A DNA stretch of 64,000 nucleotides from IMG/VR virus record IMGVR_UViG_3300018421_000015, positions 22,300-86,299 of that record. One strand, written 5' to 3'. How positions within the stretch are numbered: the first letter of the stretch is position 1; each line of letters begins with the position of its first letter. The notes beneath the pieces are model-generated. The model worked only from the letters and a program-made list of their open reading frames with translations, was not told where the DNA came from and made no database searches. Of the stretch, positions 41,367 through 63,340 are shown one piece after another. This DNA comes from a virus. Position numbers and translations under genes: made by a program.

Positions 41367-42139
41367 AACTCTTTAAGACCAACTTTCTGAGAGTCAGATA
41401 TTAGGTCTGGCATCCAGATCTTATACGGATTGTCTGATCCTATATATTCCTGATCGTTAGAGAAATCGACACCATAACATGCCATAGTTAAAAATGCATA
41501 TCGGGCCCCTTCAGTCACGGGGAACACTTCATGTCTTCCAATATAGTTAGAAGGATATATTAAAACAGTTCCAGCCTTAGGCGCATAGACTGTTCCTATA
41601 TTGGGGAAGTGCATTTCTCCACCCTGGTAATCTTCGCCACAGTTATTCAGATACAAATTGACACTAGTACTATTGTGCATGGAAACTTGATTTTGTGGAC
41701 GAGTGCCCCAATCCCATGGTACCTGATCATCACAATGCGGACCTATATGTTGACCATCCTCGTAGCCAGCAATATGGCCTCTGGGTCTCCACCAGGCAGT
41801 CGTAGCAGCGTCGGGGAAATAAGCGCAGTACTCAACCAGGGCATCATAAATTGCGTCTTCGCATTGCTGAACAAACTCCACCCATTCAGGTTTAGGTTCA
41901 CGGCCTACTTGCTCACCTTTTAGATCTAAAAATCTTTGAGGTGCTAACTGAACATCGTCTACCTTAAACTTGAATCCAGTCTTATTCTTGGCATATTTGA
42001 TACCGTCTTCTTCATAGTAAGTAAAACTATCTTCCTCATTTTTCTTAAGCCAAGATGTATACTCCATAAGTAGGTTGTTGTCTATTTTTATAACGTCTTC
42101 GCATGCGACGATTCCCATTCCTAAGTGTTCTGATTTCAC
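41363..42139 (-). CDS. Fe(II)/2OG oxygenase, tandem paralog 1
   Basis: This 258-aa protein has H135-C-D137 (GPHCDDQ), YQGGEMHFPNIGTVYAPKAG, H203 (GRHEVFPV) and R213. The N-terminus (EHLGMGIVACEDVI) and the W-W-R/K-x-x-GH-x-x-x-Y stretch before the iron motif are shared with the next three genes. The start is GTG 42139 with AAGGAA upstream. Confidence 0.87.
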   Translation of the reverse strand: MKSEHLGMGIVACEDVIKIDNNLLMEYTSWLKKNEEDSFTYYEEDGIKYAKNKTGFKFKVDDVQLAPQRFLDLKGEQVGREPKPEWVEFVQQCEDAIYDALVEYCAYFPDAATTAWWRPRGHIAGYEDGQHIGPHCDDQVPWDWGTRPQNQVSMHNSTSVNLYLNNCGEDYQGGEMHFPNIGTVYAPKAGTVLIYPSNYIGRHEVFPVTEGARYAFLTMACYGVDFSNDQEYIGSDNPYKIWMPDLISDSQKVGLKEL

Positions 42140-42148
42140 AATATTCCT

Positions 42149-43030
42149 TTACGTATTTAAATTTGTTACCTTATATTGATCTGAACTTGTGTCATAGCCC
42201 TTTTCTTGCAGGTAAGATCTGTAATCTTCTCTCAAAGTAGGTAGGTAAACATTGGTACTAATTCTACCCAACTCTGGCTCTTTAACTGGGTCACATACAG
42301 CTTCATACACATCTGAATTAGGTGTACCTTGACTATACCACCCCAAGTAACTGACCCTATGCCCTTTCCCTACTGGCTTAACCTCGTGTGCAGCCATATA
42401 ATTTGAAGGAAACATCATAATATCTCCGGCCTGCGGTTTATAGTCTATATTTAAATAGTTGAAGTAATGATGACCTTCGGTAAAGTTATTCTCGCTTAAT
42501 TCATCTTCTGAATCAACAGAATCATTTACATATACTATGCAAGATATCACATTGCGTAAAGCTAACTCATTAGATGTTTGGTGGACTCCGTAAATATACT
42601 CTGCACTTATATCAGAATGCGAACCCAGGTAAACGCCATCCTTGTACGATACAACATGACCCTTGACCTTCCACCATACACAGTTGTATGCTAGGGGAAA
42701 TAGTTCAAAATATTTAAGTAAGTATCTATCTTTAGACTGCTCTAAAAAATCAAATAATGTATGAACTTCCTCCCTACCATCTTGATGCATCATAGATGCT
42801 CTTCTGGGCATTGCGTCAACTGACTGCTTACTAAACAGGTAGCCACTCTTATTTATGTAAGCTTCCTCACCAGTCTCGGGATCAATAGTTAACTTATACA
42901 TATCGGCGTGCTCTTCATCAAGAGCCCTACAGAATATCTCGTAGGTCCAGTCATAATCATAGCTTACAGCCCCCCTAAATATGACTACACCTCCACCAAG
43001 ATGCTCCGCATCTACATCATTGAAAATCAA
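42149..43030 (-). CDS. Fe(II)/2OG oxygenase, tandem paralog 2
   Basis: This 293-aa protein has H138-S-D140 (GSHSDISAEY), H215 (AAHEVKPV) and R225 (HRVSYLGW), with CVWWKVKGHVVSYKDGVYLG before the metal motif. It has a TTG start at 43030 with GAGGT seven bases upstream; the TTGA overlaps the previous stop. It lacks the FxGGE glycine pair found in its neighbours (NNFTEGHHYF), which may alter its pocket. Confidence 0.85.
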   Translation of the reverse strand: MIFNDVDAEHLGGGVVIFRGAVSYDYDWTYEIFCRALDEEHADMYKLTIDPETGEEAYINKSGYLFSKQSVDAMPRRASMMHQDGREEVHTLFDFLEQSKDRYLLKYFELFPLAYNCVWWKVKGHVVSYKDGVYLGSHSDISAEYIYGVHQTSNELALRNVISCIVYVNDSVDSEDELSENNFTEGHHYFNYLNIDYKPQAGDIMMFPSNYMAAHEVKPVGKGHRVSYLGWYSQGTPNSDVYEAVCDPVKEPELGRISTNVYLPTLREDYRSYLQEKGYDTSSDQYKVTNLNT

Positions 43031-43914
43031 CTGCTTACCTCTTCTTTTGTATTGGAACTATGAAAAATTCTATTTACAGGGAGAAGTTTATGTTCATCAT
43101 AATTTTCTCCATAGTATTCTATCACATAATTCTTATAGTCGCTAAATAGGTTTGGCATCCAGGTTTGACCACTAGTTTTACCTGGACTAGGTTCGGAAAC
43201 ATTCACACCCCTATCTGGATCAGATGACCCCTGACCAAAGTATTCTAGAAAAGCATACCTATTGCCTAGAGAAACACCAGCTACTTGATGAGTGCACATA
43301 TAATTTGCTGGAAACATAAGGATATCACCCTTACTTGGAACATATGTTACTCCAGCGTAGGGGAAGTGTATCTCTCCACCAACAAAGTTGTTTCCTTCAA
43401 TTGTATTTTTTGAAGAATTAAAATATGTAATAGCGGCTAACACATGCCTAATACCAAGTTGAAAATCTGGTTCAAATCCAGGAGAAAAGTTGATATCATT
43501 ATCGCAATGAAGCCCTAAGTCTGAGCCGGGCCCATAAGCTAAAACATGACCGTGAGTTTTCCACCATAAACATGGAAGAACCATAGGATATATTGATGCA
43601 TACTCGATCATAGATTGATATATTGCTAGTTCACATTCCCTAAAGAAAGAAGTCTGCCAATCTTCAGTGCAAGATGAGTAGAAATCTGTGATTCTACTAC
43701 AATTTTTATCTATATCCTCAAGCTTAAACCTATGACCGCTTTTATTTGTAGCATAGAGAACATGACCTTCGTCATCATAAACGTACGAATAGTGTTTTTT
43801 TCTCGCCTCTTTTTTTAGAGACAAAAGAAAATCTGCTAGTCCATCAGGTACATTGATTTTATTTTTAAATAAAACTATACCAGAACCCAGTAGCTCTGCG
43901 CCTATGGGTAACAT
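43027..43914 (-). CDS. Fe(II)/2OG oxygenase, tandem paralog 3
   Basis: This 295-aa protein has H136-C-D138 (GLHCDNDINF), FVGGEIHFPYAGVTYVPSKG, H209 (CTHQVAGV) and R219. It shares CLWWKTHGHVLAYGPGSDLG with its neighbours. The head ELLGSGIVLFKNKI matches the GIVVF/GILVF start of the other copies. It is joined to the next gene by a short gap of two bases. Confidence 0.87.
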   Translation of the reverse strand: MLPIGAELLGSGIVLFKNKINVPDGLADFLLSLKKEARKKHYSYVYDDEGHVLYATNKSGHRFKLEDIDKNCSRITDFYSSCTEDWQTSFFRECELAIYQSMIEYASIYPMVLPCLWWKTHGHVLAYGPGSDLGLHCDNDINFSPGFEPDFQLGIRHVLAAITYFNSSKNTIEGNNFVGGEIHFPYAGVTYVPSKGDILMFPANYMCTHQVAGVSLGNRYAFLEYFGQGSSDPDRGVNVSEPSPGKTSGQTWMPNLFSDYKNYVIEYYGENYDEHKLLPVNRIFHSSNTKEEVSS

Positions 43915-43916: not shown

Positions 43917-45032
43917 TTACCCCTGATCTATAGCTACTGGATCAGTTCCACAGTTTGCTGAATCACCTGTGTCCAAAGACTCCGCTTCGTGTGTTTCTCC
44001 GTACTGAGCTACGCATCTGCCTTGATAAACCGGGTTAAGACCTATGTAAGTTTCCTCTCCCGTAGTAAACCTAGAGTATTCCGATTTACAATATCTCTCA
44101 TAATCATCATATATTGTATTCATCCACATAGCTGGGCACCACTGTATCGAATCTTGTGGTTCGACTATCTGGATATTTGCTTCTGCGTGACCGGAGCCCT
44201 GACCGAAGAAAGATAGATAACTATAACGAACACCTCCGGTCATTCTGTCAACCTCATGTGAAGCCATATAATTAGTTGGAAAAAATACTATATCACCTTT
44301 TTGTGGCTTGTATTCAACATCTAGGTGGAAAAATCTAAGATGACCACCCATAAAAGTATTTCTACCATCCATCTCTTCTTCTGTGTCTACACAATCATTG
44401 AGGTAAACTAACGCACCACATGTTTGTCTAGCAGCCATTTGGCCTCTTGGCATGTATCGAACGCCTTCGGTCACTTTATAGTTTGTATCATTATCGCAGT
44501 GTGCTCCAAGGACACCATCACCCTCGTATCTTAATATATGGCCACGATTTCTCCACCACAAGCAGCCGACTATTAAAGGATAATAATCAGTGTATTTAAT
44601 CAGGCACTTGTAAATCGTATCTTCCATATTGTAAAAGAAGTCACGAACAACGTCTGGGGTTTCATCATGAATAGGATGAAGAATTCTTACCGGAGTTGCA
44701 GGAATATCTTCTGGTCTATACCTAAACCCATCTTCATTGATACCATAGGTTTCACCATCTTCAGCCTCAATATATTCCCACCTATGATGATGAGATATAG
44801 AAGCCATGTGGTCTAAATAATCAAAAACTGGTTCTCTATCGAACTTAAGAACATCTTTAAACACTAGAATACCCGGACCAATTACATCAACTTTGTAGCC
44901 TGATATTTCCTTAATATCTTCATCGGTTAATTTTGGTGTGTCAGGAAAAGCTGTATTAGCAACGTATCTTTTACCGACTTCATTTTCACTGGCTGGATCA
45001 AAAGTCTGATCCTCTAAAACATCATTAGACAT
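43917..45032 (-). CDS. Fe(II)/2OG oxygenase, tandem paralog 4, operon leader
   Basis: This 371-aa protein is the longest copy, with an extra acidic N-terminus of about 45 residues and a C-terminal extension of about 80. The catalytic core has H178-C-D180 (GAHCDNDTNY), FMGGHLRFFHLDVEYKPQKG (Glu of the usual GGE replaced by His), H259 (ASHEVDRM) and R269. It is the first gene of a unit of about a dozen overlapping minus-strand genes, with a strong promoter 24 bases upstream. Confidence 0.87.
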   Translation of the reverse strand: MSNDVLEDQTFDPASENEVGKRYVANTAFPDTPKLTDEDIKEISGYKVDVIGPGILVFKDVLKFDREPVFDYLDHMASISHHHRWEYIEAEDGETYGINEDGFRYRPEDIPATPVRILHPIHDETPDVVRDFFYNMEDTIYKCLIKYTDYYPLIVGCLWWRNRGHILRYEGDGVLGAHCDNDTNYKVTEGVRYMPRGQMAARQTCGALVYLNDCVDTEEEMDGRNTFMGGHLRFFHLDVEYKPQKGDIVFFPTNYMASHEVDRMTGGVRYSYLSFFGQGSGHAEANIQIVEPQDSIQWCPAMWMNTIYDDYERYCKSEYSRFTTGEETYIGLNPVYQGRCVAQYGETHEAESLDTGDSANCGTDPVAIDQG

Positions 45033-47560: not shown

Positions 47561-48181
47561 TTAGCCCAATATCTCATTTATGCACTCTCTAACTGTCCAG
47601 CTTTCACCGGTTGTAAGAGGCACTGTATCGAGTGGCATTGATTGCCAATTAAATCTTCCAATCATAGTTCCTGATCTACCGACAACAAACATCTCCCAGG
47701 CATGAGGTATTCTAGCCAGGGCTGCACCTTCCTGATTCCATCCATCTTGCGCTTCCTGAGAGTTGTCGGCCATGTTGTCAGACTTGTTTCTTAGAGCTTT
47801 ACCCTTCAATAGGGAATAAACTTCACATTCATCTGGCCCATTAACATCAACCTTTTCAGCTATAGGAAAAGTAACGAAAGGATATGTTTCTTTCATGAAG
47901 GAACTTATCTCCTCATTTGTACCAGTTTCCATTAGACCCTGAACAAACTGATTACAGGGAAATGCAACTACGCTAAACCCTCTATTCTCAAACTCTTCTT
48001 GTAGCTTTTGCAGCTGCCAGAAATGCCTAACAGATCTTGCGTATGACCAGAAGGTGGAGCACTGTGGTGTGTAGTTATACTTAGAAACTGTATTAACTAT
48101 AAGAGTAACTTTACCCTTGAATTGCTCCATAAAATTATCTTCGCCATCTATTGACTTAACTGGCACATCGTAAATAGACAT
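47561..48181 (-). CDS. Glutathione-peroxidase-like protein lacking the peroxidatic Cys
   Basis: This 206-aa thioredoxin-fold protein matches glutathione peroxidases: KVTLIVNTVSKYNYTPQ, FSVVAFPCNQF with C76, and a C-terminal GTMIGRFNWQSMP. In active enzymes the segment is SKCGYTPQ; here the peroxidatic Cys is Tyr35, with a Cys41 six residues later. It may be catalytically dead, use another Cys, or act in oxidative folding. It lies inside the operon that contains three 2OG oxygenases, where it could handle oxidant or disulphide chemistry. Confidence 0.78.
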   Translation of the reverse strand: MSIYDVPVKSIDGEDNFMEQFKGKVTLIVNTVSKYNYTPQCSTFWSYARSVRHFWQLQKLQEEFENRGFSVVAFPCNQFVQGLMETGTNEEISSFMKETYPFVTFPIAEKVDVNGPDECEVYSLLKGKALRNKSDNMADNSQEAQDGWNQEGAALARIPHAWEMFVVGRSGTMIGRFNWQSMPLDTVPLTTGESWTVRECINEILG

Positions 48182-48465
48182 TATATTACCTCACACTTTG
48201 CTTCAATATATACCTGTTCCAAAAGTGGATCTTCCACCTTTATTACACTGCTATCGCTACCTAGGGAAAAGATTAACCTACAATCAAAAGGAACGGTCAG
48301 ATCCCCTTCTGCCAACAAGCCCTTTTCATCATTAAAAACTATATTTAAATCTGCAGAACCTTTAAATATAGATAAGGTTAACTCAGTATCACTTTTCTTC
48401 TCAATAGAAAACTCTTCATCACCAAGCGGCGTAACTACTTTCATCTTAGATGGGATGCTATCCAT
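48181..48465 (-). CDS. Small beta-rich hypothetical protein
   Basis: The protein has 94 aa. It is largely strand (SDTELTLSIFKGSADLNIVF) and acidic. ATG 48465 is chosen over a TTG three codons upstream because GAGGT lies at the right distance. Overlaps of one base and 8 bp join it to its neighbours. Confidence 0.6.
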   Translation of the reverse strand: MDSIPSKMKVVTPLGDEEFSIEKKSDTELTLSIFKGSADLNIVFNDEKGLLAEGDLTVPFDCRLIFSLGSDSSVIKVEDPLLEQVYIEAKCEVI

Positions 48466-49183
48466 TGTATTCAACCTCTTTCATTTCTGGTTCTTGCAGG
48501 TCGGGTAGACCATCATGTCTAGGACCTATTCTTTCACCTTTTTCATTTAATCCTGTGCGTATTCCGTTCATCCACGTCCAGGGCTCATCACGAAGCTTTT
48601 TCATCTTGGCCTCGCTGTAGGACATTCTTTCATCCATAAGATCTGGTTTATCCCAAAGGTATTCAACCTCAACTTCCATTTCTGGCATCAAGTTAGAGGG
48701 GTATACTGAAAAGAATATGAACGGCATCCCTGCAGGAAATACCACTGGCTCATTAACCTTAGTTATCTTCCAACCAGCTTGAACCTCATCTGGCCACCAA
48801 TCAGAGGGGATGCTAGCCGTAAGTGGTACAGCGCCATCAATAAAATAGTTTGGTGAACCACTAATCCATGTATGATATCCAGGCTCTGTCTTAAAAGCCC
48901 ATCCAATATGAAAATCGATCATACCTATCTTATTGCAATTCGCAATAGTTCTACCACGGTAGACATCACCTTCAACGATTTTAGGGACACTGTTGCCACC
49001 TTCCCAAGTGACAACAATGTCCTGCTGCAAAATGGCTTCCCAACCATTTACATTTGCAGCACTGAGTGGAAGACATCTATAAGCATGTTTGTTATAGGTG
49101 TCATCCATCCAGTCTCTTTTCAGTCTCGACTGCTTTATTTCAGGCGAGATCTGATGTGTTCTTATTAAGGTAAGCTTTGACAT
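48458..49183 (-). CDS. DUF6065-like protein
   Basis: The protein has 241 aa. AYRCLPLSAANVNGWEAILQ, NKIGMIDFHIGWAFKTEPGYH and EVQAGWKITKVNEPVVFPAG follow the DUF6065 pattern as I recall it: a family without known function that sits beside 2OG oxygenases and halogenases in phages and antibiotic clusters. The 19667-20500 protein is a more distant relative. Its ATG shares a base with the stop of the 49183-50070 gene (TAATG). Confidence 0.65.
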   Translation of the reverse strand: MSKLTLIRTHQISPEIKQSRLKRDWMDDTYNKHAYRCLPLSAANVNGWEAILQQDIVVTWEGGNSVPKIVEGDVYRGRTIANCNKIGMIDFHIGWAFKTEPGYHTWISGSPNYFIDGAVPLTASIPSDWWPDEVQAGWKITKVNEPVVFPAGMPFIFFSVYPSNLMPEMEVEVEYLWDKPDLMDERMSYSEAKMKKLRDEPWTWMNGIRTGLNEKGERIGPRHDGLPDLQEPEMKEVEYNG

Positions 49184-50070
49184 TATTTAGCGCCTGCCAC
49201 ATATTGTTGATATTGACCCATATTAGCCATGTCCCCACCATGGGTTTGCCACTGCCTATAGCTTTCCATCGCATACTTTTGGATCTCTTCTAGTATTATC
49301 TCCCTAAGTCTAACCTCATCCATGTTGATCGGCTCATTACCCTTCTTAAGGGTCGCTGACCCACCAGACTTTACCACCGGCACTTCGTCAGCATTAAAAG
49401 AAGGTTTCTCTGGCTGCGAATACGACTGACCAAAATCTCTGGAGAATCCACCATGCTGATGAGCGTCATCATTATAATCAAACATTGTTACAGCACTATA
49501 CTTTATACCTGAAGTAACTGGTTTTGAAGCGTGGGCAAACAAAAAGGTTGACGGGAAAAAAACGCTGTCTCCAGCTTTAGGATAGTATGTTAAGTCCAGG
49601 TAAGGAAAATACAACTCTCCACCTTCGTAGTCATCGTTCAGATATGTAACACAAGACACTGTGCATATGTAGGAGAACCCATGATCAGTATGGGTACTGA
49701 AGTGCTCGTTTACGCCGTATCTGACAAAGTTAATAGCCTCCATATAGTTCATTGTTATACCATATGCCGAGCAGTAATCTTTTAAGCATTCCTTTTGTGC
49801 TCCGGCTACCGATGTATAAACATCAATAATATCAGAAAACTCTTCTGGAGTACCAGATATATACTTATCATCCATCTTAAAATCGACACAGTCCCTATAG
49901 TCTGGCATCTTTACGCCTTCGCCAACAAGAGAATCATGCCACTTAAAATAGTCATGAGTACTATCACGAAGAGCTGTCTCCAATCTAATTGGAACATTAA
50001 CTTCTGGTGATACAGAATCATTATATACTACTATCCCCATTTTGGGATCTCCTAGGTATTCTTTTTTCAC
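49183..50070 (-). CDS. Fe(II)/2OG oxygenase with extended C-terminus
   Basis: This 295-aa protein has H127-T-D129, DDYEGGELYFPYLDLTYYPK, H180 and K190, the P4H-type site. About 90 residues follow, basic and Gln/Gly-rich (ending YQQYVAGAK), which other copies lack and which could anchor the enzyme to a partner. GTG start at 50070 with AGGAG five bases upstream; it overlaps the next gene by GTGA. Confidence 0.85.
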   Translation of the reverse strand: MKKEYLGDPKMGIVVYNDSVSPEVNVPIRLETALRDSTHDYFKWHDSLVGEGVKMPDYRDCVDFKMDDKYISGTPEEFSDIIDVYTSVAGAQKECLKDYCSAYGITMNYMEAINFVRYGVNEHFSTHTDHGFSYICTVSCVTYLNDDYEGGELYFPYLDLTYYPKAGDSVFFPSTFLFAHASKPVTSGIKYSAVTMFDYNDDAHQHGGFSRDFGQSYSQPEKPSFNADEVPVVKSGGSATLKKGNEPINMDEVRLREIILEEIQKYAMESYRQWQTHGGDMANMGQYQQYVAGAK

Positions 50071-50639
50071 TTTGTCTCCTTATTTAGTATGTGCCAAAAT
50101 CCAGTACATGCTGATCTATCTCCAGATTCTACCTCAATAACGGTATGCATGTGGTCTTCATCTGAGGGAAAGTATATTGCTGAACCAGCCAATGGCTGTA
50201 TTTCAATATCCAAGTCTGGGAACACTAAACTACCTCCCTCAAAATTCTCTGTCAAATAAAGTATAGAGCTTATATCTCTGCTTGGGAGCCCACTGTATGT
50301 AGGTAAATCAGACCAGCAATCTGCATGATATTCGAGAACCCATCCGGGAGTATATCTAACAACAGTACCAATACCCTCTTCACCCACTGTGCAGTTAAAA
50401 TCTTTTTCTATATTTTCTTTTATTATTTTATTTTTTTCCTCTAGAATCAAGGAGGCCATACAACAACTGCTTCCCTCCCCAAGAATCTCTCCTTGTTCTC
50501 CCACTTCGAAAAACTGATTGTCACTAAGCTCATCTTTGTTCCAGACAGCTTCACCTATACAATCGTGTACAGTCTTTAATTCTTCATGAGTAAATAAGCT
50601 AGCAATAATATATATATCTTTTATCTTAATTTTTCTCAT
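50067..50639 (-). CDS. Fe(II)/2OG oxygenase, P4H-like
   Basis: This 190-aa protein starts at ATG 50639 and overlaps the next gene by ATGA; the longer reading upstream lies inside that gene. The site is H105-A-D107 (LEYHADCW), FEGGSLVFPDLDIEIQPLAG, H165 and R175. A vicinal Cys pair (SSCCMAS) lies before it. Confidence 0.85.
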   Translation of the reverse strand: MRKIKIKDIYIIASLFTHEELKTVHDCIGEAVWNKDELSDNQFFEVGEQGEILGEGSSCCMASLILEEKNKIIKENIEKDFNCTVGEEGIGTVVRYTPGWVLEYHADCWSDLPTYSGLPSRDISSILYLTENFEGGSLVFPDLDIEIQPLAGSAIYFPSDEDHMHTVIEVESGDRSACTGFWHILNKETK

Positions 50640-51259
50640 AGAAGCTCCGTGATGGTATAAAAAGAGGGTGTAGTCCATCTTTCACCCTGAATCACAGGCT
50701 TAACACCATGCAGGTAGTGAATATCACCTGGATGAGCAACAGCTAGACCCGGTTTTATCTTTAGCTCAATGTCAAACTCTGGGTAATAGAATTCTCCACC
50801 CTCAAAGTCTTCATTCCAGTATATTATGGAATTAATATCATAAGTAGGAAATGGATTTGGTGATCCATCATTCAACTGTTTATCAGCATGAGGTTGCTGC
50901 TCGTTACCCGGTAACCATCTAATTAAAACTGGCGGTCTCTGATATAACTTCACTTTAAATTTATCTTCAAGCGCTCTTTGCATCTTGACAATATATGAAT
51001 CGATGAGATTATATATATCAGGATTTAATTCACCTATTATTCTTCCAGAACACATTCTGTCCCACCAATACGATGCGTCGTAGGTGCAAGTACCATCTTC
51101 GTTGAACTCATCTTCCATAGGATTCTCCCACTTATCTATAGTTGGAAAGAAGTCCTGAAGGATTTTGAGATCAGACGGCTCCACGAAGTCTTCAATAATA
51201 AGTATATTATCTAAAGAGTCACCAAAATGACCAGGCTGAATTAAAGATTTTTCTTCCAT
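50636..51259 (-). CDS. Fe(II)/2OG oxygenase, P4H-like, operon leader
   Basis: This 207-aa protein has H124-A-D126 (QQPHADKQL), FEGGEFYYPEFDIELKIKPG, H184 and R194. ATG 51259 is six bases after the -10 of a strong promoter, so translation from a leaderless message is predicted and the in-frame upstream start is excluded. It leads an operon of about a dozen genes running to 45082. Confidence 0.85.
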   Translation of the reverse strand: MEEKSLIQPGHFGDSLDNILIIEDFVEPSDLKILQDFFPTIDKWENPMEDEFNEDGTCTYDASYWWDRMCSGRIIGELNPDIYNLIDSYIVKMQRALEDKFKVKLYQRPPVLIRWLPGNEQQPHADKQLNDGSPNPFPTYDINSIIYWNEDFEGGEFYYPEFDIELKIKPGLAVAHPGDIHYLHGVKPVIQGERWTTPSFYTITELL

Positions 51260-51265: not shown

Positions 51266-51295
51266 AGTATACCACAACCTACCCCGGACTATCAA
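51266..51295 (-). promoter_or_regulatory. Leaderless promoter with its -35 in a hairpin loop
   Basis: On the minus strand TTGATA (51295-51290) and TATACT (51271-51266) are 18 bp apart, with an extended TGG before the -10. The -35 fills the loop of the 51276-51308 hairpin. ATG 51259 begins six bases after the -10. Confidence 0.6.
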
Positions 51296-51308
51296 TCCGG
51301 GGTAGGTT
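51276..51308 (-). terminator. Perfect 13-bp hairpin after the FnIII/FFPP fibre gene
   Basis: AACCTACCCCGGA (51276-51288) and its exact reverse complement at 51296-51308 flank a seven-base loop. It lies 7 bp after the stop of the fibre gene. No U-tract follows, so it may be a weak terminator. It also contains the promoter of the next operon. Confidence 0.55.
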
Positions 51309-51314
51309 TACTTC

Positions 51315-53471
51315 TCACTTAAATGATGGTGGGAAGAATGGCGGGAAGAATGGTGGGAAGAATGGCGGGAAGAATGGCGGGAAATAAGGTGGGAAGTAAG
51401 GCGGGAAGAACGGTGGGAAGAACGGTGGGAAATAGGGTGGGAAGAACGGTGGGAAGAACGGTGGGAAGTAAGGCGGGAAGAACGGCGGGAAGAACGGTGG
51501 GAAGTAAGGCGGGAAAAACGGCGGGAAGAATGGTGGGAAATATGGTGGGAAGAATGGTGGGAAGAACGGTGGGAAGTAAGGCGGGAAGAACGGTGGGAAA
51601 TATGGCGGGAAGAATGGCGTAATAGTTGTACCATCACCAGACCTTTCGTAATACCCATTCCAAGGATTAACAGAAATAAACCACTCTCTATTATCCAAAC
51701 CTGATATAGTACCACTCCAAGTATTAGCAGCATTGGGGATGATAGCCTTCAATGTAAAAACACTACTCCCAGTTAGTGGCGTTGGAGATGCATATATTTT
51801 GTAATTATTCGGCGCGTAACTAGACCCACCGAATCCTCCACCAGTCCAGCTAACAGTAACCTGACCTTCAGTAGCGGTGTTAGTTAAGGTAACATTACTA
51901 ATGTCCCCCGGTACACCAGCTGACTGAACCTCTGTTGTACTTGTTCTCCAACCAGAGCTTGCCACATCATTATTTGATCTAACCCTATATTCGTATATAG
52001 ATCCTTGTGTGGTACTATGGGTATACGACGTGCTAGAAGTAGTAGTTACAGTTGACCATGAGCCAGAATTGTTTACATTTGCCTGCAATGTATAGGTAAT
52101 GCTTGAGTCACCAGCACCATCAGAAGCTGACCAGCTAATATTAATCTTATTACCATAGCTAGTGCTATCTCCAATGACATGACCCTGACCAGTAATCGTT
52201 TCCCCAACAGTATCTACACCACCATCGCCAGTAGCCTCATGTGAATATGAAATACTCGCTGGTGTTGAAGGAGTTCCGAAAACTAAAATACTAGCTGAAG
52301 CTGAATAATTAGAACCGGTATTAGTGTTATTATTGAACGTTTTTAATCTTACATAATATGTAGTATTAGAAGATAATCCACTTAAGGACGAAGATGTGCC
52401 GATGGTTGATGTAGAATAAAGCCAAGTTGCATTGTCGGTTGAATAATATACGTCAGTAACTATGTTACCTGCAGCTGCGCCGCCATAGTTTCCTGTTTTC
52501 GTCCAAGAAATATATATAGATCCAGAACTTAATCTTGACAAAGAAGGAGTACCCGGTGCACCAGGCTCATCGTAAGCTGTGGCCGAAGCACTAGAGCTGT
52601 ATGATGAACTGCCAACAGAGTTATTTGTTCTAACTCTAAAGTAATACACTTGACTTGCACTAGTATCATCAGGGACATCGTACCCAAGTGTAGCACTGGT
52701 TCCAGTCACACCTGTTGAAAGATTAAACCACGTGGCATTATCTGTAGAGTATTGAACGTCGTAAGTTCTATTAGCAGTGGTGTCTCCACCTAAAGAGGTA
52801 ACATGAGACCACGAAACAGTTAGCGTAGCTGGATCTGCGGTAGTGGTTGCTGAGGCAGAAATGGAAGGAGCAGAAGGAGTAGTAAGTGGGGTAGCAGTGG
52901 ATCCACCCTGAACATAAGAGGATTGATATAAACTATTTTCAGTTCTAACACGATAATAATAGGCGGTGCCGTTAGTTAGAGATGTTATAGTCTTAGAGTT
53001 TGTTCCAAAAGCAACTGTTCCAGCACTTGTCCAAGTAGAACCATTTGTAGAATACTCTACCCTGTAAACAGTGTTTGCATTTGTGTCTCCACCGGTATCG
53101 CCTGCCGACCAAGAAACTGTAATCTGACCGTTGCCTACTGATGCACTAAGTGAAGAAGGAGCTCCAGGTGTTGTTATGAAAGATAATAATGAAACAGGCG
53201 TATAGGCTTCACTGACTACGCCAGAATCAGTAGTAGCAACAACAGTGATAGCGGGGGTAGTACCTGCAGATATGTCGCTAGAGGTAAAAGTAATTACGTT
53301 GCTTGTTGAAGACTTTTCGACAACACCATTTGAAGCCTTATAAGTGATTGCATCTTCCCCGTCTCTACCGGCATACTCCAGGGTTACGGTTACTACAAAA
53401 TTACCATCACTGTTTGCTAAAGAAACATCACTAATTATTGGTTGCTTACCACCATAATCTTTAACTGCCAT
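51315..53471 (-). CDS. Fibronectin type III fibre with C-terminal FFPP repeat
   Basis: This 718-aa protein has about 85 residues at the N-terminus that look like an Ig-type domain, then about five FnIII domains (each with GQITVSWSAGD-like and YYYRVRT-like strands) to about residue 620. It closes with 24 tandem tetrapeptides of FFPP or YFPP followed by SFK. FnIII domains in phage virions bind cell surfaces. The all-proline-aromatic tail is likely an extended rigid rod and is rich in possible hydroxylation sites. No enzymatic domain. Promoter at 53505-53533. Confidence 0.8.
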   Translation of the reverse strand: MAVKDYGGKQPIISDVSLANSDGNFVVTVTLEYAGRDGEDAITYKASNGVVEKSSTSNVITFTSSDISAGTTPAITVVATTDSGVVSEAYTPVSLLSFITTPGAPSSLSASVGNGQITVSWSAGDTGGDTNANTVYRVEYSTNGSTWTSAGTVAFGTNSKTITSLTNGTAYYYRVRTENSLYQSSYVQGGSTATPLTTPSAPSISASATTTADPATLTVSWSHVTSLGGDTTANRTYDVQYSTDNATWFNLSTGVTGTSATLGYDVPDDTSASQVYYFRVRTNNSVGSSSYSSSASATAYDEPGAPGTPSLSRLSSGSIYISWTKTGNYGGAAAGNIVTDVYYSTDNATWLYSTSTIGTSSSLSGLSSNTTYYVRLKTFNNNTNTGSNYSASASILVFGTPSTPASISYSHEATGDGGVDTVGETITGQGHVIGDSTSYGNKINISWSASDGAGDSSITYTLQANVNNSGSWSTVTTTSSTSYTHSTTQGSIYEYRVRSNNDVASSGWRTSTTEVQSAGVPGDISNVTLTNTATEGQVTVSWTGGGFGGSSYAPNNYKIYASPTPLTGSSVFTLKAIIPNAANTWSGTISGLDNREWFISVNPWNGYYERSGDGTTITPFFPPYFPPFFPPYFPPFFPPFFPPYFPPFFPPFFPPYFPPFFPPFFPPYFPPFFPPFFPPYFPPFFPPFFPPYFPPYFPPFFPPFFPPFFPPFFPPSFK
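51327..51614 (-). repeat. 12-bp coding repeats (24 copies, FFPP/YFPP)
   Basis: Tandem 12-base units such as GGTGGGAAGAAC encode 24 FFPP or YFPP tetrapeptides. Wobble positions differ between units, so the protein pattern is conserved more strongly than the DNA, arguing for selection on the peptide. Y units recur about every third unit. Confidence 0.85.
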
Positions 53472-53504: not shown

Positions 53505-53533
53505 ATTATAACATTTTTTAGCTATGCCGACAA
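53505..53533 (-). promoter_or_regulatory. Promoter of the FnIII/FFPP gene
   Basis: On the minus strand TTGTCG (53533-53528) and TATAAT (53510-53505) are 17 bp apart with an extended TGT. The -35 lies in the 3' end of 53522-57826. Confidence 0.5.
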
Positions 53534-56500
53534 GTCGCCGGTAACTATCCAGGTATCTGAACCCCTCTTAATCAACGTGGCCATAGAATACTGATCTCTT
53601 AACTTCAAGCCTGGCGTTGCATGAGCAGAAACTCCAGAACCAGCAGCTATAGTAGTTTGACCAGCATTGGTTTGAAGAACCATAATTTGCGTACCAATTG
53701 GGAAGTTTACACTCGACTCAGGTGGTATGGTTAAGGTATTGGTGCTCGTGTGGCTCATCTCAATCATCTTATCTTTATCAGATAATGCTAAAGTATATGA
53801 AGCTGTCTGCTGATTAAACTTAACTAGTGAAGAACTAAATTCTATTTCGTCAGTACCATTACCAACAACAATCTTGTCCTCGGTTGTATCCCAAGCAATC
53901 CTTCCATCTGTAGATGAAGTTGTTGTCGACAAAGTTAACTCTGGCGTATTTACTACGGGTGAAGTCAAAGTTTTATTAGTCAAAGTCTCAGTACCGGCGA
54001 CAGTCGCTGCAGTCCCTGAAGCTGGAAGTGTAATGCTAGATCCGGAGGCATCAGCCGTAAATGTTACATTCCCAGTGTTAAGGGTAATTGTTCTACCCGC
54101 ATTGTTCACACCTGTGCCGCCATAAGCAGAGTCTATTACAGTTGCGTTCCATGTGCCGGATGTAAGAGTTCCTACTCCGGTAATCTGAGTTTGACTTGCA
54201 TTAACTGAAAATTCTGTACCAGTTAAAGTTAATCCAGTTCCAGCAGTGAATGCTCCTGCACCAGAGAACTGAATAAACGTAACATCACTTGATCCAACAC
54301 TTGTTACTGGCTCAGACAAAACCCATCCAGTATCAGCGTAAGAAGACCCATGGGTAACAAATATAAAGTCACCACCAGCCATTTCCGTAGGTGTATCGAA
54401 ATCATCTGCACGCGTCAAAACTGTTGTTGAAGTAACAACGTAAACACCATTGTGTGCAGATGTAGACTCACCTGCAATAAGAACTCTATCATCAGTTGTG
54501 AGATCAGTATCTCCGTCAATGTCACCACCAGATAAATCAAGAGCGGTTGAAAGCGTTAATGTTGCACCAACTCCATCAGTTCCATTGTCATAAGTTACCG
54601 TATCTCCAGTAATAGTGGCCAAAGATGTTGTTGTTATCGCATGAACCTGCTCGTGAACGTGTAAACCTTCCGAGACAGCATCAACGTAGCCCTTGGTTGC
54701 GGCATCCGTTGACTGCGTTGGAGTAGACAGATTAGTAATCTTGTTGCTATTGGCATCTATATCTCCACCGGCTTGAATGGTACTACTAAACACTGCTGCA
54801 CCAGTTACATCCAAAGTCCCAGTTACGGTAAGATTATCATCAACAGTGGTCTCTCCGCTAGCAGAATCAAGTGTTAGACCATCAGAAGATGTATCAATTT
54901 CGTTGTCTCCAGTGACCCCGACCTGAATATTACCAAGTGTTCCACCAGCAAACGTAGGACTGTCTCCAGTTGCCACAGACTGACCAATAGCAACTGTCGT
55001 TGCTGCACCTTCTCCGGTGCCAGAAGTAACTGTTACACCAGTACCAGCTGTAATTGATTCAATATAGTCTCCTGTAGTATCAGTACCCAGGGCAACGCTG
55101 TCTGCTGCAACTGTAGCCGTTAGTGTTACATCTGCTGAGCCATTTACTGATACAGAACCAGTTAAATCACCGGCCAATGTAATAGTTCTTGCTGTTGCCC
55201 AAGTTGATGCGGTGCTTGCATTTCCTGTAACATCCCCAGTTAAGTTAGCAGTAACGGTATTAAACGTAACATTTGAGGTGGTTTCAACTGCTTGACCTAT
55301 GGAAACTGTTGGGGTTTGACCCTCTCCAGTATCTACGGAAACTGCGATACCTGTTCCAGCTACCAGGTTCTGAACATAATCCCCTGTAGTATCGGTTCCC
55401 AAAGCAACACTGTTGGCAGATATTGTTGTGCTAATCGAAACATCTGCTGATCCATCTATTAAAACGTCGCCTGTGACATCACCTGTAAGCGCTATCTGCC
55501 TAGAAGTGGCCCAAGTTGATGCTGTGTCAGCGTTACCAGTGACATCACCCGTGACATCTCCAGTGACATCTCCAGTGACATTTCCAGTTACGTTGCCAGT
55601 AAGATTGCCAGTGACATTACCTGTTACATCACCCGTGACGTCACCAGTAACATTTCCGATAAGGTTACCGCTAACATCACCAGTAACATCACCAGTAACA
55701 TCTCCAGTTAGATTCCCCGTAACATTACCTGTAAGATTACCCGTGACATCTCCGGTGATGTCACCAGTGACGTTACCAGTAACATTACCGGTAATATCAC
55801 CAGTGACATCTCCGGTAAAAGTTTTGTTTAATGAGTCTACTATTTTTACTGGGGTAGCATCCTGAGAGTAAACATCTCCTGTTAGATCACCATCAACATT
55901 ACCGGTTAGGTTACCGGTCACATTACCGGTCACATTCCCAGTTAGGTCTCCGGTTACATCTCCAGTTAAGTCACCAGCGACATTACCGTTAACACTTCCC
56001 GTTACATCACCTGTAACATCTCCAGTTAAATTACCAGTAACATTACCGGTTAAATTACCCGTAACATCACCGGTTACATCACCGGTAACATCACCTGTAA
56101 CATTTCCAGTTACGTTTCCAGTTACATTGCCCGTAACGTTACCGGTCAAATCACCAGTAACACCACCAGTAAATGAAGCGTTTGTGCCATCTGTTCCGCT
56201 ATGTAATACTCGTGACGTTCCGTTAGATGCGTAAACATCTCCGATCACATTACCGGTCACATTACCAGTCACATTACCTGTCACATTACCAGTCACATTA
56301 CCAGTTAGGTCTCCGGTTACATCTCCAGTTAAATCACCAGTGACATTACCGGTAACGTTACCGTTCAAGTCACCAGTAACATCACCGGTAAATGAAGCGT
56401 CTGTACCATCTGTTCCGCTATCTAATATTTGTGATCCATTACTCGAATAAACATCTCCCGTTACATTACCGGTCACATTACCGGTTACATTACCTGCAAC

Positions 56501-57826
56501 GTCACCAGTTACATCACCTGTCAGATCACCAGTAAATGATGTCGAAGTTACGGAAGATAAACCCGTTAATGATGAATCTAAATTGATTGTATTATCAGAT
56601 TTCGATAGATTATCTCCAGCTGTTAATGTATTAGTTCCAGTAAACTGTGTATATGTAATACTATCTGTGCCTAGCACATGCACATTGTTTGTACCAGAAC
56701 CATAAGAAACTATAATAAAACCCTGATTACCATTTAATGTTCCAGCAGTAGCAAAAACGGCATCGCCGGTATTAATCGATTCAGGTGAGCCATCAGCATC
56801 TGTTGCCCTTGTCAATTCCCAGGTCGTAGTTGACGAACCCTGATCTGTTACTTCGTATATACCATTCTGTGACGCAGTTGACTGATTCTTAATCAGAACC
56901 CTATCACCCGTAGTAGCATTTGATCCATCTATAGATAACCTACCATTAGTAGTTGCAGAAAGTGTAGCACCTACGCCACTAGTACCGTTATCATATGAGG
57001 GGCTATTTGACAGGGCACCAGCTGAAGCATACCTGACGGCTTCGTGCCAGTGCACACCGGCTGCAATAGAGTCAGCATAGGCTTTGGTAGCTATTTCACC
57101 AGTGTTAACTGCTATAGTAGGGGTTGAGTTTTCTCCAGAATTATTAGTTAAACTAATACCGGTGCCTGCAACAAGTGAGGCTACATAATCACCAGTTGTA
57201 TTGGTTCCAAGCTCAATGCTATCAGCCTGAATTGTGGCAGTTATGTTTATATCTGTTGAGCCATTAAACGAAGCTGAACCTGCAACATCACCAGATATTT
57301 GAATAGTACGAGAGTTCGCAAGCGTAGTAGCAGTACCAGCATTCCCGCTTACATTACCAGTTACATCACCAGTAACATCACCAGTAAGATCACCAGTAAC
57401 GTTGCCGGTAACATTACCAGTAACATTGCCGGTTACGTTGCCACTTAAATCGCCAGTAATATCGGCGGTAACGGTATTAAAAGTAACATCTGAGGTTGTT
57501 TCAACAGCTTGACCAATTGCAACTGTAGGGGTGGCATTTTCGCCAGAATTGTCGGTAAGAGTTATGCCCGTACCGGCAACAAGTGACTGAACATAGCTTC
57601 CAACAGTGTCTGTTGCCAAATCTACTGGATCATTAATCCAATTAGATCCATTATGCCTAAGAAAGTCGCCACTTGCGACATCTTCAATTACAACATCACC
57701 GATACTATTAATACTATCAGCTATAGTTACTTCTCTTATCCACGCGGTTCCATTCCATATCCAAGATGCTCCATCTACAGAATATGTGTCATTGACCGAA
57801 GGATTGTCAGGAAAATTTAAAGCCAT
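53522..57826 (-). CDS. Giant tail fibre with TGDVTGN repeats
   Basis: This 1434-aa protein begins ALNFPDNPSVNDTYSVDGAS, a head typical of phage fibre proteins. It has TGDVTGNVTGN-like repeats at about residues 120-160 and 430-765. Between and after them are repeated adhesin-like modules (TNKTLTSPVVNTPELTLS, GDRVLIKNQSTASQNGIYEV). A C-terminal domain of about 90 residues follows. Repeats of this kind are common in marine phage fibres and vary in copy number. It is the longest gene in the window. No active-site motif is seen. Confidence 0.8.
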   Translation of the reverse strand: MALNFPDNPSVNDTYSVDGASWIWNGTAWIREVTIADSINSIGDVVIEDVASGDFLRHNGSNWINDPVDLATDTVGSYVQSLVAGTGITLTDNSGENATPTVAIGQAVETTSDVTFNTVTADITGDLSGNVTGNVTGNVTGNVTGDLTGDVTGDVTGNVSGNAGTATTLANSRTIQISGDVAGSASFNGSTDINITATIQADSIELGTNTTGDYVASLVAGTGISLTNNSGENSTPTIAVNTGEIATKAYADSIAAGVHWHEAVRYASAGALSNSPSYDNGTSGVGATLSATTNGRLSIDGSNATTGDRVLIKNQSTASQNGIYEVTDQGSSTTTWELTRATDADGSPESINTGDAVFATAGTLNGNQGFIIVSYGSGTNNVHVLGTDSITYTQFTGTNTLTAGDNLSKSDNTINLDSSLTGLSSVTSTSFTGDLTGDVTGDVAGNVTGNVTGNVTGDVYSSNGSQILDSGTDGTDASFTGDVTGDLNGNVTGNVTGDLTGDVTGDLTGNVTGNVTGNVTGNVTGNVIGDVYASNGTSRVLHSGTDGTNASFTGGVTGDLTGNVTGNVTGNVTGNVTGDVTGDVTGDVTGNLTGNVTGNLTGDVTGDVTGSVNGNVAGDLTGDVTGDLTGNVTGNVTGNLTGNVDGDLTGDVYSQDATPVKIVDSLNKTFTGDVTGDITGNVTGNVTGDITGDVTGNLTGNVTGNLTGDVTGDVTGDVSGNLIGNVTGDVTGDVTGNVTGNLTGNVTGNVTGDVTGDVTGDVTGNADTASTWATSRQIALTGDVTGDVLIDGSADVSISTTISANSVALGTDTTGDYVQNLVAGTGIAVSVDTGEGQTPTVSIGQAVETTSNVTFNTVTANLTGDVTGNASTASTWATARTITLAGDLTGSVSVNGSADVTLTATVAADSVALGTDTTGDYIESITAGTGVTVTSGTGEGAATTVAIGQSVATGDSPTFAGGTLGNIQVGVTGDNEIDTSSDGLTLDSASGETTVDDNLTVTGTLDVTGAAVFSSTIQAGGDIDANSNKITNLSTPTQSTDAATKGYVDAVSEGLHVHEQVHAITTTSLATITGDTVTYDNGTDGVGATLTLSTALDLSGGDIDGDTDLTTDDRVLIAGESTSAHNGVYVVTSTTVLTRADDFDTPTEMAGGDFIFVTHGSSYADTGWVLSEPVTSVGSSDVTFIQFSGAGAFTAGTGLTLTGTEFSVNASQTQITGVGTLTSGTWNATVIDSAYGGTGVNNAGRTITLNTGNVTFTADASGSSITLPASGTAATVAGTETLTNKTLTSPVVNTPELTLSTTTSSTDGRIAWDTTEDKIVVGNGTDEIEFSSSLVKFNQQTASYTLALSDKDKMIEMSHTSTNTLTIPPESSVNFPIGTQIMVLQTNAGQTTIAAGSGVSAHATPGLKLRDQYSMATLIKRGSDTWIVTGDLSA
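55530..56540 (-). repeat. Long array of TGDVTGN-coding repeats
   Basis: Short direct repeats of 12 bp, such as ACATCACCAGTA/ACGTTACCAGTA on the plus strand, encode the TGDV/TGNV/TGNL units of the fibre. The array is interrupted by spacer modules (DSGTDGTDASF, SGTDGTNASF) that themselves repeat. Copy number is likely unstable. Confidence 0.75.
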
Positions 57827-57914: not shown

Positions 57915-58955
57915 TTACTGTAGAGAGTCTGACATCATGTTCAAATTATTAGAAAATCTTTCATTATCTGGCTCTAATAAAAGAGCCGCTTTACAGTACT
58001 TTATCGCTAATTCATGCATTCCGAGATTCCAAGATGCTATTGTTGCCATATCATATGGGTGTGAACCCCAAGCTTCCGCCTCACATAGATATTCTAAAGG
58101 TTTCTCTTTAATAACTAAAGCACTCTCTACGGCAGACAGGCACTCTATCCACCTAGAATTTACATAATAATATCCAGCTAACTCAATCCAAGGCTCTCTC
58201 CTGTCGGGAGACTCTGCACACGCTTTTAATAGCCAGGGATATCTTTCCCCGCTTACTCTAGACAAATACCTCATTGCGGTAGCTCTTTCGGGCTTCCATT
58301 TAGATATTTCTAAGTACTTTAGAAATTGCTCTTCAGCCTGATTATTCAATCCGGCGAACATATATTCTCTGCCTAAGTAAAATCTATTTCTGTCATCACT
58401 TGGATCTTCCCTAATTGACAATTCTAACAGTGGGAGATACTGAGATCTTGACTTAGTGGAATCTGGATAGTGGTGAATCTCTAAATCTATCCAACCCTGA
58501 TTTTCTTCTATGGAAGGCTTTAAAACTTCGTGAACAGGATGCTTCCATCTGTACCCATTCCTGGAATGAATTTTGTCACCAGAATACACAAGACCTTCTG
58601 ATGAATCCTCGTTCCAAGACCAAACATATTTATACCTGGGACGAGTAACTAATGGGTCAACACGCTCTAAATGGTCGCGCCAACCTTTTGTTAAAATTTC
58701 GTCTGCATCTAAAGCTATACAGTAATCGTAATCAGAAGGAATCAAAGACAATGCTACGTTCCTGGCATCATCAAACCGCCAAGGCATCACTGATGCTGAG
58801 TGTACGGTACATCCTGCCAGTAGAGCTTTCTCTACTGTTCCATCAGACGAACCAGTATCTAGTATCAACCTGAGATCGGCTTCTGCACAAGATTCTGCCC
58901 AGCGTTCAATAAACTTCTCTTCATTTTTTGCAATTGTATAGACAGCTATTTTCAT
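57915..58955 (-). CDS. Family 2 glycosyltransferase with helical repeat domain
   Basis: This 346-aa protein starts MKIAVYTIAKNEEKFIERW, then RLILDTGSSDGTVEKA and YDYCIALDADEILTKGW, the GT-A fold with its Asp-x-Asp, in the SunS-like style. Residues about 190-346 are helical repeats (FYLGREYMFAGLNNQAEEQF, LKYCKAALLLEPDNERFSN) resembling TPRs, which often hold protein acceptors. It sits among fibre genes, so glycosylation of a fibre is a good guess. Confidence 0.82.
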   Translation of the reverse strand: MKIAVYTIAKNEEKFIERWAESCAEADLRLILDTGSSDGTVEKALLAGCTVHSASVMPWRFDDARNVALSLIPSDYDYCIALDADEILTKGWRDHLERVDPLVTRPRYKYVWSWNEDSSEGLVYSGDKIHSRNGYRWKHPVHEVLKPSIEENQGWIDLEIHHYPDSTKSRSQYLPLLELSIREDPSDDRNRFYLGREYMFAGLNNQAEEQFLKYLEISKWKPERATAMRYLSRVSGERYPWLLKACAESPDRREPWIELAGYYYVNSRWIECLSAVESALVIKEKPLEYLCEAEAWGSHPYDMATIASWNLGMHELAIKYCKAALLLEPDNERFSNNLNMMSDSLQ

Positions 58956-61741: not shown

Positions 61742-63340
61742 TTAAACTTTAATAGCAGTCTTGTTTACTGTAACTTTTGCAGTGGTTGAGGCACCGTCGG
61801 TGACTGTTACGTATAGCAGTCCGTTAATTCCACTGGTCGAAACATCTACTGAAACTCCAGATATTGAACCATTCAATTCGAGGACCCCGTATTCTGTTTT
61901 GTCGATACTTGACCCATCAGTAATGACATGAACTTTGGAACAGCGAACCTTGCTGCCCTGTTTAATTTGCACAAAATACTCTACACTTGGATAATTGGAC
62001 ATTACAAAAGAATCAATAAGTGTTTGAGTGTTACTATTAATATTTACAGTAATTGACTCCACTATAGAATTACTAAGGTCCAGGTAACCAGATACAAGAG
62101 CATCACCCACAACGTGGAGATCGTGAGAGGGGGAAGTGGTTCCTATTCCAACTCTATTGTTATCTGAGTCAACGTGGAGGGTGCTAGTGTCAACGGTAAA
62201 ATCTCCATCTATAGATGATATTGGTGGCATACTCAGGCTCGTACCGTCAGAAGTAATTTGTACCCCTCCAAGATTTATGCTATTTCCACTTAAATAAAGA
62301 TCCCTAAAACGATAAGTAGAAGAACCAAGATCATAAGCCTCATTAGTATCTGGTATTAAAGAACCACCAACAGACCTTGATCCATCAGCTAGCAAATATT
62401 GAGTATGGTCATCGTCAGAGAGACCTGTCATAGATCCATGATCACTAGTGGGGATTGTTGCATTAACCCATCCTGAACCAGAGTACTTAAGAAACTCACC
62501 CGAAGTAGCGCTTGTTATTGATACGTCAGATAAGTCATCTAGCGCTCCAGCAACACCACTTGCACCGGTAGGGCCAGTTGGTCCAGTTGAACCAGTTAAA
62601 CCCGTTGGACCCGTTGGCCCCGTTGGACCATCTTGACCAATAGATCCAGTGGGTCCAGTAGGACCAGATAAACCTGTGGGTCCTGTCGGTCCAGTAGGTC
62701 CAATTGCCCCTGAAATTTCTACCCAAGTTGAATCGTAATATGAAAAAAGCCTAGCACTAGATGAGTCAAACCACAGATCACCTGAAGCAACAGGGGAAGG
62801 AGCGCTATCTGAAACTTGCAATCTATCTGGACCAGTTGGACCAGTAGGTCCAATTGCCCCTGAAATTTCTACCCAAGTTGAATCGTAATACGAAAAAAGC
62901 CTACCCTGATTAGAATTAAACCACAGATCGCCAACATTAGATGACGAGGGCGCTGAGTCTGAGACGGATAATCTATCCGGACCAGTAGGTCCAGTAGGTC
63001 CAGTAGGTGCTGGAGCTGGAGCAAACTTTGTACCATCAAAGGCTAACACGTAGTCTGTGGTTGCACCACTAGTATTTAATTCAATATTGTCGACAAAGAG
63101 GGAAGAAATGTATACAGAATTCGGTAATGAAAAAGTAAACTCACCAGAAGATTCTGAAACATTTATCTCATTTGAAGTACCACTTATAGACCTAACTAAC
63201 TTTGTCGTAACAATATCTTCTACAGAATCTTTATAAAAAAGATTTCCATCATTATAGTTTAGAGCTATTTCACCATACTCTAAAGATGAAGGGGTATTAG
63301 TAGCTGTACCTGAATTTTTAATTTTAACGACATTAGCCAT
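61742..63340 (-). CDS. Tail fibre with collagen-like modules
   Basis: The protein has 532 aa. Residues ~110-240 contain repeats of [20 protein letters not shown]-like modules and GPTGPTGP triplets, continuing as [18 protein letters not shown] middle domain ([19 protein letters not shown]) follows, and a C-terminal tip ([19 protein letters not shown]) is shared with 59562-61688. No protease motif is visible. Collagen-like triplets in phage fibres form trimeric shafts. Confidence 0.8.
62560..63010 (-). repeat. Collagen-like GPT repeats and tandem ~45-aa modules
   Basis: DNA repeats such as GGTCCAGTAGGTCC encode GPTGPTGP triplets. Two large near-identical segments (about 62690-62840 and 62845-63000) encode duplicated GDLWFDSS...STWVEISG modules. 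It is a hotspot for copy-number change. Confidence 0.7.

Follow-up and report, generated by a model that had tools for sequence, protein, structure and literature searches.

Why should a phage fibre end in a long run of Phe, Tyr and Pro, and what do the genes beside it have to do with that run? We address this question for a 64,000-nucleotide stretch of viral DNA (positions 22,300 to 86,299 of the IMG/VR record IMGVR_UViG_3300018421_000015), hereafter called the window. On its minus strand, a gene at 51315-53471 encodes a 718-residue fibre protein. Translation, profile matches and a predicted model divide it into fibronectin type III (FnIII) beads (approximately residues 1-602), a C-terminal array of tandem [F/Y]FPP tetrapeptides (51327-51614) and a final SFK with the stop codon (51315-51326). 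We propose that a tail fibre ends in this array as its C-terminal tip, and that the array is a substrate of the phage's own adjacent oxygenase, a prolyl-hydroxylase-like enzyme dependent on 2-oxoglutarate (2OG) and Fe(II). We put the probability of this reading at roughly two in three.

Residues 620-715 of the fibre translate into 24 units, 16 FFPP and 8 YFPP. A first-pass annotation of the letters had claimed 24 such units at the end of an FnIII fibre, and both its count and its coordinates were exact. It had also described the repeat as nearly all Phe, Tyr and Pro and as the end of the protein; the array does consist of [F/Y]FPP only, and SFK follows it before the stop codon. The 24 units occur in 12 distinct nucleotide forms. 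Tandem Repeats Finder reports a 12-bp period with 24.3 copies at 51326-51617, plus a 36-bp higher-order period. Comparing the units, we find all variation confined to third codon positions and to the one base that separates Phe from Tyr, while the other first and second positions are unchanged. The homologues in the stretches L005, L006 and L007 hold 25, 21 and 20 units with the same restricted variation, and their carrier proteins share 39-59% identity with the window fibre over the best segment. Because the unit differences are limited in this way, the array is under selection as a peptide, and the annotation's argument from wobble differences is borne out. The annotation held that its idea would fail if the copies were absent from all relatives; all four non-identical homologues aligned to the window fibre retain the array. 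Two further open frames overlap it, at 51308-51733 (minus strand) and 51323-51622 (plus strand). We take them as by-products because the FnIII protein continues only in the FFPP frame.

The carrier has the marks of a tail fibre. An fn3 domain (PF00041, E = 6.7e-17) precedes the array, the protein matches phrog_31, central tail fibre J (1.9e-17), and the upstream neighbours of the gene match tail-fibre PHROGs, one of them with a collagen repeat. The nearest, a repeat-rich protein of 1434 residues that resembles virion or tail-fibre proteins (53522-57826, minus strand; open reading frame (ORF) and PHROG match), suggests that the array gene sits in a fibre module. Tail-fibre homology, FnIII beads and a fibre-module location thus come together at 51315-53471. 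The 1434-residue protein also carries long GNVTGDVTG-type repeats of its own, with 12-bp and 60-bp periods. The array contains no Gly, and the Gly-every-third-residue pattern of a collagen-like repeat is absent. In the fibre model, the array has no secondary structure and a pLDDT below 50, which is uninformative on its fold, and a search of the PDB at E values up to 10 returned no solved structure of the repeat.

Directly downstream of the fibre gene lies the likely partner enzyme, a 2OG-Fe(II) oxygenase similar to prolyl 4-hydroxylases (P4H) and prolyl 3-hydroxylases (P3H) by profile and fold matches (50636-51259, minus strand). The listed ORF starts with TTG at 51295, and comparison with relatives points to an ATG at 51259 as the likely start. 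The gap from the array gene is 19 bp to the listed ORF and 55 bp to this ATG. The enzyme has the Fe-binding HxD...H set and the basic 2OG-binding residue. In the numbering of the listed ORF, these are the HxD at 136/138, H196 and R206, and H136, D138, H196 and R206 are invariant across 12 aligned sequences of the enzyme's clade (clade I). The HxD..H..R/K set is complete in 63 of 67 array-adjacent enzymes, the remaining four being cut by the end of the stretch. Searched against all PDB entries, the clade I profile (A1) best matched prolyl 3-hydroxylase 1 (P3H1; 1e-7) and a Bacillus P4H (1.7e-5). The profile of a second clade (clade II, A2), to which the L043 enzyme at 7483-8196 belongs, best matched a P4H (1.6e-7) and next the lysyl hydroxylase LH3. 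The clade I model (pLDDT 88) shows the double-stranded beta-helix fold of solved prolyl hydroxylases. Foldseek ranks P3H1 best (9.1e-11) and also finds the prolyl hydroxylase vCPH of the virus PBCV-1 (2.6e-10); the VIA Z scores are 17.8 for P3H1, 16.9 for PHD2, 16.5 for vCPH and 16.2 for the P. putida P4H. The PKHD-type protein PiuC (Z 16.0) and the putative oxygenase structure 3dkq match as well, and therefore the substrate cannot be read from the fold.

If the array and the enzyme belong together, each should lead to the other. Scanning IMG/VR for three units, we obtained at least 120 stretches with an array (L008-L127, the forward set), so the repeat recurs widely in this database. Random and collagen-pattern viral stretches contained an [F/Y]FPP-type array in 0 of 120 and 0 of 118 cases (base rate 0/238). 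The annotation had asked for a virome search for FFPP repeats next to P4H-like genes, and it turned out positive: of the 120 array records, 98 scored above the cut-off of PF13640, the Pfam family of prolyl-hydroxylase-like oxygenases (36/45, 41/50 and 21/25 of L058-L082), and positive records often hold 5-13 copies each. Controls matched for neither habitat nor lineage, run on 50 of the 120 random (14-mer) and 50 of the 118 collagen-pattern loci, were positive in 0/50 and 3/50 records of all sizes. Among records of at least 50 kb, PF13640 was present in 22/22 array, 0/7 random and 0/9 collagen-pattern records. A custom oxygenase hidden Markov model, applied to the fetched stretches, gave 87/120 for arrays, 2/120 for random and 5/118 for collagen.

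The placement is equally regular. Of 81 array ORFs, 78 have their nearest 2OG ORF downstream; 68 have it on the same strand and 67 no more than 1 kb away, and the gap has a median of 151 bp. This count includes the window and L003-L007 and requires a 2OG ORF in the fetched stretch; it omits arrays without one and 16 loci whose array ORF is shorter than 60 residues under the start-codon rule. When carriers in which 40 or more residues precede the array are grouped by blastp, 12 N-terminal sequence families result; not all of these contain FnIII, and six of the 12 have members with a 2OG gene within 1.5 kb.

We also searched in the reverse direction, starting from the neighbour enzyme and ignoring the array. 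Among the best 80 of 564 relatives of clade I (12-sequence profile A1), 72 occur with an array, 68 in the stretch and four elsewhere in the record; array rules vary slightly between scripts, and another script gave 66/80 on the same stretches. Of the eight records without an array, seven are 4.4-8.5 kb long, and the eighth has 22 kb. Among the best 80 of at least 555 relatives of clade II (profile A2), 74 stretches hold an array. The two clades are only about 20% identical, so the linkage runs both ways in two divergent groups of enzymes. Some of these reverse loci overlap the forward set or L003-L007 (e.g. L367/L003, L368/L004, L022), and some are near-identical copies. Collagen-like ORFs were found near the enzymes in 0/80 clade I and 7/79 clade II stretches versus 6/120 random ones; the same custom rule found them in 92/118 collagen-pattern loci.

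The arrays follow two grammars. Besides the xFPP type of the window, a second type, FFPFFPP, occurs on other fibres, often ahead of Cys-rich or Hint-like C-terminal parts. The closest relatives divide cleanly: xFPP arrays accompany clade I in 66/66 cases, and arrays that contain FFPFFPP accompany clade II in 73/73 (139/139 overall). In the forward set clade I stands beside xFPP in 22/22. The carrier statistics, both for pure arrays and for clade versus grammar, draw on 260 carriers, spread over 255 of 285 loci. Taking every locus examined without removing duplicates, we counted 142 pure arrays with 2220 units. Phe fills position 2 in 2215 of these units, and position 1 is occupied by F, Y, H or W in 2217; the selection rule, which called for at least four closely spaced [FYHW]FPP or [FY]FPFFP motifs, itself favours units of this kind. 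Lys and Arg are absent from the arrays. At least 90 of these 142 arrays end in FK or FTK. Run length is 3-34 units with a median of 15, cut arrays included.

Is the pairing one inherited cassette? In a quick tree of 262 oxygenases, of which 47 are array-adjacent, we counted 28 label changes, at least 16 of them forced by strongly supported branches; several branches are long. A single origin of the adjacent enzymes is not supported. Because the tree needs 28 gains or losses of adjacency, it speaks for a pairing that would have arisen repeatedly and not as one cassette, yet adjacency can also be lost. A bacterial origin of the array was rejected. Scanning 84,980 genomes, we found 15 stretches with an array-like match. 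Three of them, L476, L480 and L483, show the SPYFPP..SFK type; the L476 and L480 stretches contain 2OG genes, and none was found in that of L483. The remaining 12 resemble low-complexity LFPP/HFPP sequence or short runs. As to the phages themselves, none of 48 large array-bearing records matched the Gp23 major capsid protein in a search whose own controls were also unmatched. A match to phrog_2, the terminase large subunit, was seen in 7 of 19 virus records in addition to cyanophage S-H9-1; G000 had none.

We envisage the following course of events. The xFPP units would form a proline-rich chain prone to polyproline-II, 96 residues long in the window fibre; a chain of this length measures about 30 nm when fully extended. 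The neighbouring enzyme would hydroxylate its prolines after translation with O2, Fe(II) and 2-oxoglutarate. The product would be a stiffer, more polar rod of hydroxyproline and aromatic residues at the fibre tip, probably touching the host surface, where it may serve an adhesive or structural role. The annotation had listed a scaffold for prolyl hydroxylation among three possible roles. This one has gained strong genomic support from both search directions and from the relatives of the enzyme, and the two others, a stiff rod and a sticky tip, are compatible with hydroxylation.

A tip must be exposed, and the carriers suggest three ways to achieve this. The xFPP arrays mostly terminate the protein with xFK. 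In L048 (1082-1762, minus strand), a Peptidase_S74 chaperone follows directly after the array (3.6e-11), and a string match finds the SDVRDK sequence of this S74 region in L415, L419, L421 and L428. Known Peptidase_S74 domains sit at the C-terminus of trimeric fibres and cleave themselves off. In L043, L087, L111 and others, a Hint/intein-like domain with a C-x-x-x-D-T-like start follows the array, matching weakly and below the Pfam cut-offs. If the S74 and Hint domains cleave like their families, the array would be the mature C-terminus in all three designs. Generalising, we tentatively suggest an undescribed, widespread virion-modification system in uncultured phages, a proposal that could go either way. 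In it, xFPP and FFPFFPP tails, exposed by the stop codon, S74 cleavage or Hint-like autoprocessing, would be hydroxylated on proline by dedicated neighbours whose clades at least partly match the grammar. The hydroxyprolines might then be elaborated by other oxygenases and by glycosyltransferases encoded in the same island. L090, L086 and L111 carry (PT)n, (TEAP)n and Thr-rich runs after short FFPP runs beside a 2OG gene; these runs may be further hydroxylation substrates.

Several observations weigh against our proposal. The contigs are related and not deduplicated, the relatives are a best-80 choice and the controls are unmatched, so that the counts and Fisher p-values overstate independence. 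Part of the linkage is explained by common descent of a fibre-plus-oxygenase cassette. The other six of the 12 carrier families show no 2OG gene within 1.5 kb, one of them in 0/8 members. The clade-to-grammar match holds among the closest relatives and is looser in the forward set, which led us to reject a perfect one-to-one correspondence: enzymes nearer A2 stand beside 19 FFPFFPP-type and 12 xFPP arrays, and eight adjacent enzymes fall in neither clade (three FFPFFPP-type, five xFPP). Eleven of those 12 xFPP cases involve distant A2 relatives, and the twelfth, L120, is close and has an irregular array. In addition, no PF13640 match exceeds the cut-off in 22 of the 120 array records, of which 13 are shorter than 15 kb and nine measure 16-39 kb. 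Among these nine, L081 and L084 have an oxygenase by the custom profile and L080 has a sub-threshold match, while in six records of 19-38 kb (L014, L017, L078, L105, L112 and L119) no oxygenase was detected. The annotation had named copies in phages with no oxygenases as a refutation, and these six records go part of the way towards it. L014, L017 and L078 have a short array with more protein after it, and the array of L105, L112 and L119 sits where the fetched stretch ends; the oxygenase-less records may be fragments.

The reverse expectation also has limits. We examined 15 phage records that carry 2OG genes, cyanophages making up 12 of the 15, and none holds an array or even two adjacent [F/Y/H/L]FPP units. 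Therefore, an oxygenase does not imply an array, many phage 2OG enzymes must act otherwise, and the idea that 2OG enzymes in general imply arrays was rejected. Within the window, the partner ORF itself scores 22.9 bits for PF13640, below the 27-bit cut-off, while the two genes after it pass (47.4 and 45 bits). These are a second 2OG-Fe(II) oxygenase at 50067-50678 (PF13640, 3.9e-12) and a third at 49183-50070 (PF13640, 2.2e-11; phrog_61, 1.4e-27). Four PF13640 oxygenases stand in tandem at 41363-42139, 42149-43030, 43027-43914 and 43917-45032, and a further 2OG-Fe(II) oxygenase lies at 30446-31426 (phrog_61, 3.9e-10), the latter seven all on the minus strand. Altogether we count at least eight P4H-like genes in the window, besides two of the TauD type. 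With several oxygenases per genome, any of them might be the one that modifies the array.

The junction of the two genes adds a last point of this kind. Folding reveals a perfect 13-bp hairpin between them (51276-51308, minus strand). Its loop holds a -35-like TTGATA (51295), paired with a TATACT ending at 51266, just before the oxygenase ATG. L005, L006 and L007, when folded, have a strong hairpin with another stem sequence and then a TATAAT-like box, and L011 has the same layout by eye. A terminator scan found no T-tailed terminator at 51276-51308. We infer that the hairpin may mark a transcription boundary, a terminator combined with the oxygenase's own promoter, and a terminator-promoter unit with a leaderless or near-leaderless oxygenase mRNA is possible. 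A hairpin with a promoter-like site suggests that the fibre and oxygenase genes need not be co-transcribed.

How far do these observations favour other explanations? The oxygenases could modify a different target, such as the collagen-like tail fibre at 61742-63340 (minus strand; PF01391, 6e-9), FnIII, a glycan or a host molecule, with the array hitchhiking by descent as a mere neighbour in a hypervariable island for host recognition. Large marine T4-like phages are described as having islands that combine tail fibres with glycosyltransferases (PMC7029224). The wealth of oxygenases in the window beside a collagen-like fibre fits such a view, as do the 15 phage records with 2OG genes and no array and the six array records without a detected oxygenase. 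However, the collagen DNA pattern does not predict PF13640 (3/50), and collagen-like ORFs are rare near clade I and clade II enzymes where arrays are the rule (72/80 and 74/80). The link is moreover kept across N-terminal carrier families, some of them without FnIII. We therefore regard another target as unlikely, and we rejected collagen as a general substrate on the PF13640 and ORF counts; in this one window, the collagen-like fibre is a possible substrate.

It is still more improbable, in our estimate, that the array is an unmodified structural device, a polyproline-II rod or a hydrophobic aromatic adhesion patch, with unrelated oxygenases beside it. Such a device would suit the composition, the C-terminal position, the variation in unit number, the unfolded state in the model and the existence of array records in which no oxygenase was detected, but it leaves unexplained both the two-way linkage with relatives of prolyl hydroxylases and the downstream placement. 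Hardly credible is a DNA-level feature, i.e. a slippage, recombination or replication element that is translated by chance. The 12-bp and 36-bp periodicity and the open frames on both strands would agree with it; the confinement of unit differences to wobble and F/Y bases, the near-constant Phe at position 2 and aromatic or His residue at position 1, and the recurring C-terminal xFK would not. Hydroxylation of the fibre tip by the adjacent enzyme remains our preferred reading.

The window holds further genes that may be of interest. Six minus-strand genes at 33610-35064, 36292-37329, 38637-39464, 39455-40804, 40548-41366 and 57915-58955 encode a Nol-like carbamoyltransferase, a GlcNAc transferase, two TauD-type oxygenases, a DegT aminotransferase and a beta-1,4-glycosyltransferase; they possibly form a surface-modification island in the same record. 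Directly after the oxygenases lies a gene for a DUF6065 protein (48458-49183, minus strand, 6e-41), followed by one for a glutathione peroxidase (47561-48181, minus strand; PF00255, 1.1e-24). By reading, L005, L006 and L007 hold closely similar ORFs to the former and homologous ORFs to the latter. This phage record also encodes a cytochrome P450 (29134-30357, plus strand; PF00067, 3.2e-26) and a tryptophan-halogenase-like protein (20460-21968, minus strand; phrog_2928, 8.2e-94), with 2OG-like ORFs by the custom profile near the latter (21970-22563 and 23195-23899). Genes for a Prok-JAB protein (2.5e-6) and an AAA ATPase (1.1e-23) lie close together at 739-2445 and 3536-5131 (plus strand).

The closest known parallel is PBCV-1. 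Its vCPH (PDB 5c5t), a 2OG prolyl hydroxylase encoded by the virus, shares the fold of the clade I model and plausibly modifies a proline repeat within proteins of PBCV-1 itself. A PBCV-1 prolyl hydroxylase with viral peptide substrates was reportedly described by Eriksson et al. in 1999; the substrate repeat is PAPK. Unlike that algal virus, we deal here with phages, the repeat is xFPP and not PAPK, and oxygenase paralogues cluster beside the fibre genes. The collagen P3H and P4H, the algal P4H and the EGLN hydroxylases of HIF share the fold of the clade I model and the HxD..H..R/K set, and the best PDB profile matches of both clades belong to this group, but identity in structural alignments is only about 12-21%, and the array lacks Gly-X-Y. 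Phage tail fibres with collagen-like Gly-X-Y repeats likewise contain a low-complexity, proline-rich rod, whereas the array is aromatic, has a tetrapeptide period without Gly and is linked to hydroxylases, to which the collagen pattern is not. Tandem Pro/aromatic peptides are also hydroxylated into adhesive or wall rods in mussel foot proteins and plant extensins; those are eukaryotic and secreted, and we claim no homology to the array. The PHROG 61/PF13640 oxygenases of cyanophages and marine phages belong to the same superfamily and PHROG; their structural similarity to EGLN3 and their wide occurrence in phages of marine bacteria are noted in a recent report (PMC12774648). Unlike the enzymes studied here, they had no array in the 15 examined records, and three cyanophages place the gene between recombinase and primase-helicase genes.

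In the literature searched, we found no description of FFPP-type repeats in phages; the strings FFPPFFPP, YFPPFFPP, PPFFPPFF and FPPFFPPF gave nothing, and only PPYFPP gave results, with no phage titles among them. A viral prolyl hydroxylase together with a proline-rich viral protein is the known part; the phage setting, the repeat and the tight two-way pairing appear to be new. According to a Baltic Sea survey, the P4HA gene is abundant in viruses and the viral use of prolyl 4-hydroxylase 'remains cryptic' (PMC9301287). One class of phage 2OG oxygenases now gains a specific, easily synthesised candidate substrate, (F/Y/H)FPP. If our proposal is true, some of the phage 2OG oxygenases of cryptic use would have a protein substrate, and the hydroxyproline/aromatic product would be a new class of biomaterial. 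Phages would then hydroxylate their own fibre tips, and adsorption would be tied to the oxygen, iron and 2-oxoglutarate of the infected cell.

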